A stretch of DNA of 40,051 bases from Bacillota bacterium (lineage in GTDB: Bacteria > Bacillota > Clostridia > Peptostreptococcales > Anaerovoracaceae), in NCBI GenBank assembly GCA_017438285.1, contig JAFRVY010000020.1, forward strand, positions 1 to 40,051, in the 5' to 3' direction. Under the pieces are notes generated by a model. It did not search any database. It saw only the letters and a list, made by a program, of their open reading frames with translations, and was not told the origin of the DNA. Positions 3,925 through 39,846 of the stretch are shown piece after piece. The position numbers were made by a program, and so were the translations under genes. The stretch's first letter is position 1; every line of letters begins with the position of its first letter.

Positions 3925-4581
3925 ATGGAAAAGAAAGACATCATTCAATTTATCAGTTCGGCCAGCGGATCATATTCGCCGTATCAGCTGTTTTATGACT
4001 GGGTGAAGTGCCTTGCGCTCTCCATCGCTAATTCCTGCAGCATACATCACGGGAAGATATGGGAAGAACGGGAAAAGGAATACCTGCAGACATTCAACCG
4101 CCATGATAAAAAGACGCAGGATACGTTTATGCAGGCCACATTTGCACTGGTTGAAATCTATGAGAACTGTTTCGATGACGTGCTCGGAGACATATACATG
4201 AAATCCGGCTGCGGGAACAAGAACACAGGACAGTTTTTCACACCATATCATCTGGCCAGACTGATGGCAGAACTTTCGCTTCCGAAAGATCTGACGGAAA
4301 ACGTCAAGATCCCAATCAACGAGCCGACCTGCGGCGGCGGTGCGAATATCATAGCCACGGCCGATGTACTGCATTCCCGAGGCCTGAATTATCAAAAAAT
4401 GCTCTATGTAGTGGGTCAGGATCTTGATTATCTGGCGGTATATATGACTTACATAGCATGTTCGTTCTATGGAATAGACGCAATCATAGTTCAGGGAGAC
4501 ACCCTCCAAGATCCTTATGTGGACGGCTATGACGAAAGGAGAATTTTCCGAACGCCCATGAATGTAGGCGCACTATTATAA
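3925..4581 (+). CDS. N6-adenine methylase-like protein lacking the NPPY motif
   Basis: 218 aa. It resembles the N-terminal part of HsdM-type N6-adenine methylases: TGQFFTPYHLARLMAEL (about 101-117), the SAM-binding motif I variant NEPTCGGGANI (132-142) and an acidic GQDLD (164-168) after a beta strand. The protein ends at GDTLQDPY...NVGALL, before the (N/D)PP(Y/F) catalytic motif expected about 20 residues later. It may bind SAM without methylating, act with a partner, or be a truncated enzyme. It begins 3 nt after the recombinase, and a copy of the GTTGC..GCAAC palindrome follows its stop codon. Confidence 0.8.
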   Translation: MEKKDIIQFISSASGSYSPYQLFYDWVKCLALSIANSCSIHHGKIWEEREKEYLQTFNRHDKKTQDTFMQATFALVEIYENCFDDVLGDIYMKSGCGNKNTGQFFTPYHLARLMAELSLPKDLTENVKIPINEPTCGGGANIIATADVLHSRGLNYQKMLYVVGQDLDYLAVYMTYIACSFYGIDAIIVQGDTLQDPYVDGYDERRIFRTPMNVGALL

Positions 4582-4584
4582 AGA

Positions 4585-4600
4585 GTTGCGCCGGTGCAAC
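4585..4600. repeat. Dispersed palindrome copy 1 (intergenic)
   Basis: GTTGCGCCGGTGCAAC, one mismatch from the perfect GTTGCACCGGTGCAAC. It lies between the stop of the methylase-like gene and the RBS (AAGGAGG) of the next ORF, 3 nt after the stop codon. In RNA it could form a short hairpin, but no T-run follows. Confidence 0.85.
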
Positions 4601-4617
4601 TTCTTAAGGAGGCAAAT

Positions 4618-4797
4618 ATGGAAACGATCACTCAGGCGGCTATAGATATAAAAACGATGCCGACCGCATCCCAGAATATTATTGCCGCCCAGCTCTTCCG
4701 CTGCGCCTCAAAAGCGTTTGAGAATAAGGATGTGCAGCGGCAGTACCAGGAATGGAAGAAACAAGAGCAAAAAGAACACAAGGGCAGAGGGCGTTGA
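4618..4797 (+). CDS. Small hypothetical protein
   Basis: 59 aa from ATG 4618, preceded by AAGGAGG with good spacing. It is a mostly helical basic protein (ITQAAIDIKTMPTASQNIIAAQLFRCASKAF, then a K/E/Q-rich tail). No family recognised. It is the first of four tightly packed small early genes, and its stop overlaps the start of the next gene closely (TGATATG). Confidence 0.6.
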   Translation: METITQAAIDIKTMPTASQNIIAAQLFRCASKAFENKDVQRQYQEWKKQEQKEHKGRGR

Positions 4798-4798
4798 T

Positions 4799-4990
4799 AT
4801 GACGAAGCAGGAATCGTACAGCTGGAATACCCGGATCCTCACCGAAATCAAGTCCAAAATAATGGACTCTCTTGATTATTTAAAAACAAATGAATCCGAG
4901 TATTCCAAAACACAAAGGAAGCTCAGGGCGTTCGAAGAGATCGTTGACATCCTGGGAATGAAAGGAACGAAAGGAGAAGACGCATGTTAG
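4799..4990 (+). CDS. Small hypothetical protein
   Basis: 63 aa from ATG 4799, immediately after the previous stop, which suggests translational coupling. It is predicted all-helical with a coiled-coil look (ILTEIKSKIMDSLDYLKTNES...KLRAFEEIVDILG). No recognised domain. A longer reading of the frame from 4682 would overlap the preceding gene and is rejected. It overlaps the next gene by 7 nt. Confidence 0.55.
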   Translation: MTKQESYSWNTRILTEIKSKIMDSLDYLKTNESEYSKTQRKLRAFEEIVDILGMKGTKGEDAC

Positions 4991-34774: not shown

Positions 34775-35989
34775 ATGAGCAAGACATTTATTGCTGACAA
34801 GGAAACGCTGGACAAAGTATATGCCATCGTTTCGGACAATGACTGCTACGGATTTATCGAGCACTGCGCGATCAAGAATCCGGCGCAGAGGATCGAGTAC
34901 ATCGGTCTGAATAAGAACTATACGCCTCTGACCGTGGACAAGGCGGCGCACACCTTCTCTCTCGGATCATGGGCGACATTCCCGGTACTCACAGAAAATA
35001 AGCCGTACATGGTAAAAAGCAACGGCGCAGAGGATTATCAGCTGTCAGAGACCGACTACACGAAGAAGGCCGACGGCGTGACCTCTTCTGATGTAGCCGA
35101 CGACACCTACGACGGCGGCGCGTTCTCGAAGCTGATCAGAATCTACCGTAAGCAGGAATGGGTAGGACATGACAGGATCGTGCTCTTCTCATTCGAGGAA
35201 AAAGAAGGATTCACGGCCGACGGCTTCGGCGATGCCCCCTGCAGGTGGATCCCTATGTTCTACGGCAGCATTGACACAAACGGCAAGGCTCACTCAACCG
35301 CGAACACCCACCTCTCAAAGAACAAGACAACTGCAGAGCAGTACACGGCCATCCAGAACTTCAATGCGAACGCAAAGTTCTTCGGCGGCCCGATCGTTGA
35401 GGTTATCATTGACCTGCTCATGATGTTCGCAAAGACCAGCGACATGCAGGGCGCATACGGCGACGGCAATATGTCCGGATACGACGCTTCTGATACCACT
35501 GACTACGGCATGAAGACCAACAACGTAGTAGGCGGCGGACAGTTCTACGGATCCACAGACGGCACAAGCCTCAACAAGATCCTTCATTCCGTAGTTTTAG
35601 GATCATACAGCCAGTGGATGCGTGATCCCTATGAGGTTGTTGTAAACGGCAAAGTAAAGGTATCGAAGGATTACACCTACGATCCTACCGGAGCCACATA
35701 CGAGGATACCGGTATCATGGTTCCGAACATCGGAAACTGGACATATCCGCTTGACTACTACCCTGTTAAGGGCTACGGTTCAATACCGATCGCTCCGTAT
35801 TCGGGAGGATCCACCGCAGAAGGACCGTGCGACGGAACATATGTAGCGGCTGACCAGAGCACGAAAACGGCGGTCTCGCTTCGGTTCGGCTACTGCGACA
35901 ACGGCGCTCATGACGGCGTTCGCGCGCGGAATTGGAACCACGTGGCGACGAATACGTACTGGAACTTCGGGTTCGCCCTCTTTCTGTAA
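34775..35989 (+). CDS. DGR target protein: tail tip/receptor-binding protein with C-type-lectin-like variable C-terminus
   Basis: 404 aa, RBS AAGGAGG. The N-terminal ~300 residues are a novel-looking structural body (IEYIGLNKNYTPL, RIYRKQEWVGHDRIVLFSFE). The last ~80 residues have a CLec/FGE-like pattern (SIPIAPYSGGS..., then SLRFGYCDNGAHDGVRARNW ending FGFALFL), as in DGR variable proteins such as Mtd. The final 39 codons are the variable repeat: relative to the template the current protein carries I>L, N>Y, N>D, N>H, N>Y, I>F, I>F. It should sit at the fibre tip and bind the host receptor. The stop codon is 1 nt after the repeat ends. Confidence 0.92.
   Translation: MSKTFIADKETLDKVYAIVSDNDCYGFIEHCAIKNPAQRIEYIGLNKNYTPLTVDKAAHTFSLGSWATFPVLTENKPYMVKSNGAEDYQLSETDYTKKADGVTSSDVADDTYDGGAFSKLIRIYRKQEWVGHDRIVLFSFEEKEGFTADGFGDAPCRWIPMFYGSIDTNGKAHSTANTHLSKNKTTAEQYTAIQNFNANAKFFGGPIVEVIIDLLMMFAKTSDMQGAYGDGNMSGYDASDTTDYGMKTNNVVGGGQFYGSTDGTSLNKILHSVVLGSYSQWMRDPYEVVVNGKVKVSKDYTYDPTGATYEDTGIMVPNIGNWTYPLDYYPVKGYGSIPIAPYSGGSTAEGPCDGTYVAADQSTKTAVSLRFGYCDNGAHDGVRARNWNHVATNTYWNFGFALFL
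35868..35985 (+). repeat. DGR variable repeat (VR)
   Basis: 118 bp, aligned without gaps to 36163-36280 (offset 295). 111/118 positions are identical. The seven differences are at VR 35879, 35891, 35897, 35939, 35957, 35966 and 35981; the template has A at every one (A>C, T, G, C, T, T, T). All seven are first codon positions and all change the residue. This is the signature of adenine-specific mutagenic retrohoming. Confidence 0.97.
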
Positions 35990-36016
35990 AAACCTGCTGC
36001 CCTTCCGGGAGGTGAA

Positions 36017-36034
36017 TTGCGCCGTAAGGCGCAA
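36017..36034 (+). promoter_or_regulatory. DGR-associated hairpin 1 downstream of VR
   Basis: TTGCGCC GTAA GGCGCAA: perfect 7-bp stem with a 4-nt GNRA-type loop, 31 nt after the end of VR. In the Bordetella phage DGR a 7-8-bp stem with a 4-nt loop just downstream of VR is needed for efficient homing; this one is similar in size but farther away. Confidence 0.6.
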
Positions 36035-36052
36035 GAGGGGGTTCTCCCCCTC
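36035..36052 (+). promoter_or_regulatory. DGR-associated hairpin 2 downstream of VR
   Basis: GAGGGGG TTCT CCCCCTC: perfect 7-bp stem with 4-nt loop, abutting hairpin 1 with no gap. No T-run follows. It could be a homing (cruciform) element, or with hairpin 1 limit transcription from the fibre gene into the template RNA. Confidence 0.55.
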
Positions 36053-36162
36053 AATAGATAAAGCCGCCTGGCACTCAGGCATGTAACCTATAGGCAAAGC
36101 ATAAAAAGCTTGGAATATCATCCACAAAAAGCAACACAATAGCGGAGAAGGCCTTCGCCTCG
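36053..36162 (+). other. Non-coding stretch between hairpins and TR (5' part of the template RNA)
   Basis: 110 bp without a credible ORF. It contains a 5-bp stem GCCTG(GCACT)CAGGC near 36066-36080 and the palindrome GAAGGCCTTC near 36147-36156. It is likely transcribed as the leader of the template RNA. No promoter is recognised, so the retro-transcript may start upstream of the fibre gene. Confidence 0.4.
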
Positions 36163-36280
36163 CGGCGGTCTCGATTCGGTTCGGCAACTGCAACAACGGC
36201 GCTCATGACGGCGTTCGCGCGCGGAATTGGAACAACGTGGCGACGAATACGAACTGGAACATCGGGTTCGCCCTCATTCT
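36163..36280 (+). repeat. DGR template repeat (TR)
   Basis: 118 bp with about 25 adenines, seven of which are replaced in VR. In the reading frame of the target it carries AAC and ATY codons at the diversified sites (N, N, N, N, I, I, I), the codon choice that lets A-mutagenesis sample many residues without making stops. It lies between the target gene and the RT gene. Homology ends abruptly at both ends (36162/35867 and 36281/35986). Confidence 0.97.
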
Positions 36281-36443: not shown

Positions 36444-37610
36444 ATGAGAAAAGGCAAGAAACCACCTGCGAGGATGAGAAACAAGCAGTACAAGTACCTA
36501 TGGAAGAAATGCCAGGATGAAAAGATAATCCGTCAAGCATGGAAGAATCTGAGGCGGAACAAGACCAAACGCAAGGGCGTTATGGAGATTGATAAAAATC
36601 TCAATGAAGAAGTCAAGAAGATGCAAAAACTCATAGCCGAAACCGTGGCAGAGAATCCAGCCGGCGGCTATAATCCGCCGAAGACGCGGAAAACAAAGAT
36701 CGTACACGAGAAAGGCAAGAAAAGGACGGCACACCTTGCCGACATTCATGAGCAATGGTATTTTCACATACTTGTGGAAGTAATGCAGCCGATAATCCTG
36801 CGCAGGCTCTCGAAGAACGCTGTCGGATGTGTTCCGGGCAGAGGCGCACACTTAGGCAAGCACAAGATCGAGAAGCTGATCAGCGAGGGAGCCAGATACT
36901 ATATCAAAGGTGATGTCAGACACTTCTATGACAACATCCGGATAGATATCGTAATCAAGGAGCTCCGGCGCGACATTGCCGATGAACGATTTCTGTACCT
37001 GATCCGTAAGATATACCGGTATCAGCCTAAAGGCATACTTATAGGGCTGTACATATCGCCCTGGCTTGCAAACTACATCCTGATACCGGTAGATGATCTT
37101 ATAGAACGGACGGACAATACCGGCCTTGTCAGATACGTGGATGACCTTATAATCACGAGCACAAACAAGAAAGTGTTGCACCGGCTGCTTACAGCGGTGC
37201 GCATAGCGCTCGGAAAGCTCCGTCTGAAGCTGAAGCATAACTATCAGGTTATACGGCTCGATTATGAGACCAAAAACGGCAGGATCGGCAGACCGATAGA
37301 CTTCATGGGCTTCGAGTTCTGGCGTGACCGCACAGTCATCAGAAAATGTATCCTGTTAGCAGCTACACGCACGGCAAAGAAACTGTGGCGGGCAAAACAG
37401 GAAGGCAGAGGCTACTACGCAAGGCAGGTCCGCGGGCTTGTCAGTCTCATGGGCTGGTTTCAATGGACAAACTCATATGACTGCTACCTCGCGTACATCA
37501 AACCTTGCGTGGACATAGGTAAGTTAAAGAGAATCATATCAAAATTAGACAAGGAGGCAAAGAAAAATGACGGAATGGAAGAAGGAGATCTGCGCGGAAC
37601 AGCCGCCTGA
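36444..37610 (+). CDS. DGR reverse transcriptase
   Basis: 388 aa. RT motifs in order: AHLADIHEQWYFHILVEVMQ and LSKNAVGCVPGRGAH (motifs 1/2, 95-136), IKGDVRHFYDNI (catalytic D157), ILIGLYISPWLANYIL (198-213, motif 4 region with IG rather than the QG of group II intron RTs), RYVDDLII (catalytic YVDD 231-234), IGRPIDFMGFEFWRD. A basic ~95-residue extension precedes and a thumb-like region follows. DGR RTs usually read IGxxxSQ; here it is IGxxxSP. The partner TR/VR pair makes the assignment firm. It copies TR RNA with errors at A. Confidence 0.94.
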   Translation: MRKGKKPPARMRNKQYKYLWKKCQDEKIIRQAWKNLRRNKTKRKGVMEIDKNLNEEVKKMQKLIAETVAENPAGGYNPPKTRKTKIVHEKGKKRTAHLADIHEQWYFHILVEVMQPIILRRLSKNAVGCVPGRGAHLGKHKIEKLISEGARYYIKGDVRHFYDNIRIDIVIKELRRDIADERFLYLIRKIYRYQPKGILIGLYISPWLANYILIPVDDLIERTDNTGLVRYVDDLIITSTNKKVLHRLLTAVRIALGKLRLKLKHNYQVIRLDYETKNGRIGRPIDFMGFEFWRDRTVIRKCILLAATRTAKKLWRAKQEGRGYYARQVRGLVSLMGWFQWTNSYDCYLAYIKPCVDIGKLKRIISKLDKEAKKNDGMEEGDLRGTAA

Positions 37611-37830
37611 GTTCGAGGATGCCGGCGGCGGTACCATGATCCAGAGGCGCAACATCGAACAGAAAAACGTCGAGGCTACCGACACCATGCCTGCATATAC
37701 GGAGTGGGAATGCGAGAGCCGCTTCATGGATAATAGCGAGTACCACCTGCTGAAATCCATCGAAGAGATCGACACAGCTGACGCTATCGACGCATACACC
37801 GAACAGCTTTTAGAAGAGGGGGTACTGTAA
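37567..37830 (+). CDS. Small hypothetical protein downstream of the RT
   Basis: 87 aa, RBS AAGGAGG inside the RT 3' end (44-nt overlap). It is acidic and largely polar (TEWKKEICAEQPPEFEDAGG, YTEWECESRFMDNSEYHLLK, SIEEIDTADAIDAYTEQLLE), with no recognised domain. Phages of this type often have an XkdW-like or tail-fibre-associated small protein directly before XkdX. It is too short and not helical enough at the start to be a standard Avd. Confidence 0.6.
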   Translation: MTEWKKEICAEQPPEFEDAGGGTMIQRRNIEQKNVEATDTMPAYTEWECESRFMDNSEYHLLKSIEEIDTADAIDAYTEQLLEEGVL

Positions 37831-39633: not shown

Positions 39634-39723
39634 CGTGCAAAGTATATGTGGCACCAATATGCCAAAAACTTTACGACTGAGAAACATGAACCGCCTCGGC
39701 GGGTTCAAATTGTCCTCGTTCAA
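39634..39723. other. Non-coding stretch between terminator and tRNA; candidate location of the right attachment site
   Basis: 90 bp without a gene. It holds a bulged stem-loop GAACCGCC..GGCGGGTTC near 39687-39705. The phage/host junction probably lies here or in the tRNA 3' end, but the left att site is outside the window, so it cannot be defined. Confidence 0.35.
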
Positions 39724-39805
39724 TGCGGAGTAAGAGACTTGAACTCTCACGTCTGTTGACACATGATCCTTAGTCATGCCTGTCTGCCAATTCCAGCAAC
39801 TCCGC
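39724..39805 (-). tRNA. tRNA-Leu (anticodon AAG)
   Basis: On the minus strand the acceptor arms GCGGAGT (39805-39799) and ACTCCGC (39731-39725) pair perfectly with discriminator A at 39724. D-arm CTGGAATTGGCAG, anticodon stem CATGA/TCATG with loop CTAAGGA (anticodon AAG), a variable arm as in class II tRNAs, and T-arm GAGAG TTCAAGT CTCTT. CCA is not encoded. The 3' end faces the prophage, the usual orientation for integration at a tRNA, although the edge integrase is a serine enzyme. Confidence 0.9.
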
Positions 39806-39846
39806 ATCATACGCTCAAAAACAATCGTTTTCTCACGTGCTTTATT

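Follow-up and report, generated by a model that had tools for sequence, protein, structure and literature searches.

We describe a diversity-generating retroelement (DGR) in a phage genome from a Bacillota bacterium and conclude that it is very probably a working DGR of the type found in FP_Epona, with an RT-4 RNA as spacer. The sequence analysed is the whole of contig JAFRVY010000020.1 (assembly GCA_017438285.1), 40,051 bases in length, and is referred to below as the window. The element is a true DGR of a type already described, with FP_Epona as the nearest example. Its anatomy, the adenine specificity seen in relatives, the transfer of sequence from template repeat (TR) to variable repeat (VR) after lineage splits, the purifying selection on the reverse transcriptase (RT) and the conserved structured RNA are established by the comparisons reported here. 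Taken by itself the element adds another case to the phage DGRs; the wider interest lies in its relatives, which inform on the role of the spacer RNA, on the SQ motif of the RT and on T-to-G changes at template T.

According to the mechanism that we propose, a transcript running across TR and the RT-4 spacer would be bound by the RT encoded downstream, and cDNA of TR would be made with errors at template adenines. The priming of this cDNA would take place in the spacer, by analogy with BPP-1. The cDNA would then replace VR, which forms the 3' end of a tail gene, with the assistance of a GC-rich border and a DNA hairpin past VR, and the phage population would thereby hold many versions of the C-terminal ~40 residues of the tail protein.

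Results and discussion

The phage genome and the target gene

The window belongs to a 1.65-Mb host genome, a bin of ~80% completeness, in which the phage contig is one unbroken piece. Family scans find an integrase, a terminase, a portal protein and a major head protein all encoded on it; the contig is a temperate phage genome, integrated or not, and presumably a prophage. No direct repeat of at least 13 bases links the first 2,900 and the last 750 bases, and no host flank was identified on the contig. Close to the right end lies a tRNA-Leu (aag) gene (39723-39806, reverse strand), a possible attachment site with no matching repeat of at least 13 bases near the left end.

The target gene (34775..35989, forward strand) encodes a 404-aa tail protein whose C-terminal end is VR. 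The product matches the tail family phrog_5302 (E 4e-68) and no Pfam family, and is 52% identical to the FP_Epona target, which is annotated as a BPP-1-like major tropism determinant; a profile comparison with Mtd of BPP-1 itself gave a non-significant E of 0.064. Two further weak signals were not used, namely a match of the target profile to PDB 1iy8 (E 0.16) and matches from target alignment A2 to two Pfam models, one member each (E 0.03 and 0.09). Homology to the FP_Epona protein and analogy with BPP-1 suggest that the target would act as a receptor-binding tip, and the varied C-terminal ~40 residues are by the same analogy probably the host-recognition end of the tail protein.

Upstream of the target, family scans identify a Tail_P2_I gene and a collar-fibre gene, and on its 3' side follow two hairpins, TR, the RT-4 RNA, the RT and a gene of 87 codons. 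The latter is succeeded by two small genes without an assigned function and then by those for an r1t-type holin and an endolysin, in agreement with the earlier placement of the target as the last tail gene before the lysis genes.

The repeat pair

VR (35868..35985) and TR (36163..36280), both on the forward strand, align over 118 bp without gaps, exactly at the coordinates first proposed. When recomputed from the alignment, the seven mismatches all fall on TR adenines, as had been claimed; with 25 adenines among the 118 bases the probability that seven random mismatches would do so is 9.1e-6. They also lie without exception at first codon positions and change the amino acid every time (I>L, N>Y, N>D, N>H, N>Y, I>F, I>F), again as originally read. 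The clustering at position 1 has P 0.007 given the TR of the window and P 0.036 under the rates seen in the family. Restriction of mutation to first codon positions was considered and rejected: in 79 pairs from relatives the adenines changed number 575/975, 365/834 and 31/90 at codon positions 1, 2 and 3, respectively, and mutation of the first position is thus no general rule.

A further point of the earlier account needs correction. It took seven altered adenines as a sign of at least one homing event, and seven is the exact number of mismatches; the seventh, however, at VR 35981 and TR 36276, sits inside the 3' border of the repeat and is probably a fixed border difference, because A in TR with T or C in VR recurs at this site in eight of ten loci compared from the window's subclade (read by eye, window included; L063 and L142, the remaining two, are not clearly readable). 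This leaves six. An adenine-masked scan of both strands of the contig found no third copy of the repeat, and the other matches to it in the rest of the 1.65-Mb genome extend over only 15 to 30 bases.

The GC-rich 3' border of VR (35967..35985, forward strand) is the probable IMH, a name given by analogy with BPP-1 (PMC3240598, accessible portion). Beyond it are two DNA hairpins, listed without strand, each with a 7-bp stem: one at 36017..36034, 31 bases past VR, with loop GTAA, and the other at 36035..36052 with loop TTCT. The fold z-score for the stretch 35975-36060 is -4.4. The hairpin after VR in BPP-1 is described, in the text available of PMC3240598, as a GC-rich stem with a 4-nt loop GRNA, which the GTAA loop of the window does not match. 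Among relatives, 48 of 79 have a perfect stem of at least 5 bp within 75 bases past VR, where 14.8 are expected. A function of the hairpins and integration at the border are suggested by analogy with BPP-1.

Adenine specificity in the relatives

The scan for VR/TR pairs covered the window together with 192 loci, 193 sequences in all. Several of the loci overlap as parts of a single contig. A pair was found in 156 and none in 37, and 95 of the pairs are distinct. Most of the pairless loci (26 of 37) came from searches with the target, and 19 of these 26 end at most 206 bases past it. The other seven (L025, L055, L059, L118, L121, L125 and L133) are target relatives that continue for at least 4 kb downstream with no RT match; since the targets of L025, L055 and L118 are identical, there are five distinct ones, which, judged from sequence, represent the tail protein without a cassette nearby. 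The remaining 11 pairless loci came from the RT search and have no more than 563 bases ahead of the RT match (one base in L176), with the exception of L200, which showed an unrelated repeat under neutral scoring.

The scoring used in the scan penalises mismatches at bases other than A; this affects where a pair begins and ends, and leaves the type of replacement untouched. Neutral scoring also gave 95 distinct pairs, with the same result away from the 3' border, and dropped four of 158 pairs in which fewer than 70% of mismatches were on A, including BPP-1, for which the opposite strand had been read. In the 95 distinct pairs 1180/2310 TR adenines are changed versus 42/8219 other bases, and 64 pairs have no mismatch outside adenines at all. 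The differences in the relatives lie overwhelmingly at TR adenines rather than spread evenly over all bases, the check that the original prediction had named. At sites other than A the TRs of other loci differ from that of the window at a median of 29% (ungapped, so a slight overestimate), while agreement between each VR and its own TR reaches 99.5% at such sites; TR-to-VR transfer has therefore occurred throughout the history of the clade.

The nearest relative is L008, the only contig found by a pattern scan. Between it and the window the TRs differ at 2 of 118 bases and the VRs at 13. Eleven of the 13 lie at TR adenines and the other two follow each phage's own TR, which is the outcome predicted for closely related phages. 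The RTs of the two differ with dS 0.60 and dN/dS 0.081, and purifying selection has acted on the RT of the window since the two lineages parted.

In 443 AAC codons the first A is changed in 60% and the second in 37%, with Tyr (17%), Asp (17%) and Ser (11%) as the most frequent replacements. For the reconstituted BPP-1 system, PMC12875486 reports the strongest influence for the base on the 3' side of the template A, and AAC yields mainly Tyr (14%), Ser (12%) and Asp (10%) there. The natural values may be shaped by selection.

The reverse transcriptase

An RT with the motif YVDD had been noted downstream of TR, and it is present as an intact frame of 388 aa (36444..37610, forward strand) matching PF00078 (E 6e-17) and phrog_1423 (E 1e-73), a family that also includes the RT of BPP-1.

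The SQ motif of DGR RTs was once proposed as the cause of the adenine errors. In the window motif 4 reads IGLYISP, in which IG is kept and Q is replaced by P, and so departs from the typical DGR form (I/V/L)GxxxSQ. In the 2012 survey that named the motif, the accessible text gives the typical form for 140 of 155 elements, as typical and not required, and variants such as SP for the other 15, which show adenine exchange and are counted as DGRs; it allows for sequencing errors or recent inactivation in the variants (PMC3521204). Over the 95 loci we read SP in 10, SQ in 81 and ST in one, with three not read. Eight SP sequences form one group (support 100/100) amid the non-SP members of the clade in a midpoint-rooted tree of 38 RTs, and the share of changed TR adenines is 121/235 in SP loci versus 1013/1986 in SQ loci. 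Inactivation or sequencing error is less tenable for the SP loci because a diverged SP clade has mutated VRs. The SP clade is in effect a natural experiment on the SQ motif, with adenine mutagenesis unchanged under SP. A separate observation concerns L010, where the RT frame (4025-4987) ends early at 321 aa and the tblastn match extends to 5165; this RT may be broken or mis-assembled, and the VR of the locus is well diversified.

Two other readings of the window have to be weighed. The element could be a DGR that was once active and is now silent in this phage, its VR being a frozen product, and the window does have the lowest share of changed TR adenines among the 95 pairs (28%). Such silence nevertheless seems improbable when set against an RT that is open and has been selected for function since the split from L008, two TR base changes since then that are both mirrored in VR, and an RT-4 RNA that differs from that of L008 at 6 of 117 positions and still scores 103.7 bits. 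Alternatively, the RT could be that of a group II intron, a retron or a defence system that happens to lie beside a tandem repeat; it does match TIGR04416 (117 bits) and several PADLOC RT profiles. We give this next to no credence, as the TIGR04416 score is far below the cut-off of 300 bits, an Rfam scan of the locus finds RT-4 only and no group II intron or retron RNA, adenine-specific VR/TR pairs adjoin related RTs throughout the clade, and the RT of the window has a profile match to that of BPP-1 (E 2e-22).

The spacer RNA

Between TR and the RT lies a structured RNA of the RT-4 family (RF03025; 36321..36437, forward strand), found at full length and above the gathering score of 73.5. RT-4-type RNAs were reportedly defined in one earlier paper. 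The RNA is present in all 18 loci that were scanned with Rfam, which were chosen to hold the stretch from TR to RT and to stay within the size limit of the scan, and in nine of ten further records (E <=0.001; eight above the cut-off), the tenth being the contig of L121, with no RT-4, no VR/TR pair and no RT match. Among 297 genomes of the host order, under strict filters, only the window's own genome contains it. Covariation was assessed in the 19 sequences that also served to derive the structure: 18 of its 27 base pairs show changes on both sides, and the 82 cells of this kind compare with 27 after shuffling and with no more than 19 after sliding the structure.

The same slot between TR and RT is filled by RF03022 (Phage_DGR) in BPP-1 and by RF03068 (RT-3) in three Bacteroides phage DGRs, so that Phage_DGR, RT-3 and RT-4 occupy one position in different DGR clades (L138, L203, L215, L216, L217). 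The BPP-1 spacer, in the available text of PMC12875486, folds, recruits RT-Avd and primes cDNA. By analogy RT-4 would do the same job, and the occurrence of RT-4 (and RT-3) in this slot suggests what their job is. A literature search returned no paper that gives RT-4 the role of the BPP-1 spacer; one may still be in print.

Avd and the 87-aa gene

The DGR of BPP-1 needs Avd, which is not present in all DGRs. The element of the window had been called complete, and this holds for VR, TR and an intact RT but not for an Avd-like gene, which was not found. PF05635, tried at the outset, had no match even in its control and was replaced by PF22296 and phrog_3206, both positive in BPP-1. PF22296 matched none of ten sources of the RT-4 type, phrog_3206 gave one weak partial match (G061, E 0.002, in a 1111-aa frame), and a tblastn search with BPP-1 Avd recovered only BPP-1 itself among 98 sequences. 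The DGR of FP_Epona and its absence of an Avd homologue are already published (PMC5883640, accessible portion).

Overlapping the end of the RT is a small gene for an acidic protein of 87 aa (37567-37830; phrog_20201). It occurs in 85 of the 98 sequences and, in those with a located RT end, starts 3 to 82 bases ahead of that end, except in L010; in seven loci with a complete RT and more than 500 bases beyond it no match was found. Among 50,697 phage records only two, both of FP_Epona, match it. As a candidate for a new accessory factor the gene was rejected, since it is also present, directly after the target, in L125 (6220-6417) and L133 (936-1202), where there is no RT match, and its product has a pI of ~4.3. 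The most fitting reading is a gene of the phage itself, next to which the DGR lies.

Relation to known systems

FP_Epona (MG711462) has the same order of baseplate, tail I, collar fibre, target, RT, 87-aa gene and lysis genes as the window, an RT that is 46% identical, 13 VR/TR mismatches all on A, an RT-4 RNA of 124 bits and likewise no Avd. It is a different phage with its own TR and VR, and its RT reads LGFYISQ and YMDD where that of the window reads IGLYISP and YVDD. Butyrivibrio phage Arawn (MN882550) also has adenine-only mismatches (nine), but its RT and target are only 33% and 28% identical to those of the window, its RT-4 match (49 bits) is below the cut-off, and its RT branches outside the clade that holds the window. 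BPP-1 (NC_005357) shares the target with VR, the TR, a structured spacer RNA and a homologous RT, with 17 adenine-only mismatches in the aligned stretch; it differs in having Avd before TR, a Phage_DGR spacer in place of RT-4 and a tropism determinant without significant similarity to the target. DGRs of the hankyphage type (Bacteroides phage p00) contain VR, TR, an RNA between TR and RT, and RT, and are adenine-specific too (413/1026 A changed in 39 pairs); the spacer in this case is RT-3.

T-to-G changes at template T

Changes at template T in the RT-4 clade are few and almost uniform: the 95 pairs contain 24, of which 23 are T>G and one is T>A. The T>G changes are in the VR/TR pairs of L018, L023, L024, L057, L082, L085, L099, L130 and L166. 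For 42 loci there is a partner with no more than a single base of difference in TR, and with a change taken as derived if the partner VR keeps T, all 11 polarised T changes (908 such T sites) are T>G and derived in VR; other polarised changes are C>T (4/1285), G>T (1/1383) and those at A (289/629). The probability of 11/11 is ~3e-10 at the G share of T differences in upstream coding sequence (32/237) and 6e-6 at one third, the events being treated as independent. By next template base, T>G occurs at 15/575 T before A or T versus 4/1161 before C or G (P 5e-5, 79 pairs), a figure weakened because 7 of the 19 events share one column.

Neutral scoring over all bases yields 41 T>G, 18 T>A and 9 T>C. 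The excess of T>A and T>C was considered as a counter-argument and rejected, since the extra cases fall within 25 bases of the repeat's end, at the fixed 3' border; omission of the final 20 bases leaves 22 T>G, one T>C and no T>A among 1789 T.

DGRs of the hankyphage type served for comparison. A first look gave six pairs, too few for T>G, and an alignment-based scan of 94 loci found a pair in 44 and none in 50, with 39 pairs distinct. Their 859 T include five T>C and one T>G, the latter in L282, which has six other non-A mismatches; the difference from the RT-4 clade has a Fisher P of 0.005 for the rate of T>G and 0.0002 for its share. The leading adenine change also differs, being A>G in the RT-4 clade (551/1180) and A>T in the hankyphage type (203/413). 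T>G corresponds to dC opposite template U, and A>G is likewise an insertion of dC. On balance we favour the interpretation, with some reserve and from sequence comparison, that the RTs of the RT-4 clade may have a second specificity that places dC opposite template U at ~1% of sites, more commonly with a 3' A or U, and that is rare or absent in the hankyphage type.

The same G could instead have come from older or foreign TR alleles, through a change in TR or recombination between phages, with no RT error involved. Other TRs do have G at T>G columns 32, 63, 74, 88 and 92, a single base separates the TR of L024 from that of L039, where the position concerned is G, and at column 22, which holds the seven shared events, one TR also has G. 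Yet C is commoner than G in the other TRs at columns 32, 63, 88 and 92 and the strict survey has no T>C, column 22 is T in 77 of 79 TRs, and in each of the 11 polarised cases the partner with a nearly identical TR retains T. Moreover, at least five of the 11 are synonymous, and in coding sequence upstream of VR the same partners (only pairs less than 8% divergent, 444 differences) differ mostly by C/T (149), followed by A/G (83), A/C (81), A/T (56), C/G (43) and G/T (32). An origin from other TR alleles is rather unlikely, and the second specificity of the RT remains our preferred reading.

A survey of 948 DGRs, in the text accessible to us, reports non-A changes in 868 of 1874 pairs, with T mostly replaced by C (PMC6642488), and the RT-4 clade therefore differs from the pool. 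The accessible portions of the literature searched, including PMC12875486, PMC3521204, PMC6642488, PMC8144416 and PMC10907252, contain no report of T>G that we could find, and this type of error may be new. DGR finders that demand an exact match outside adenines cannot reveal it. If confirmed, T>G would mean that misreading in DGRs is not strictly adenine-only and that it varies between RT clades. By motif 4, T>G is found at 0/244 T in SP loci and 23/1806 T in SQ loci (P 0.10).
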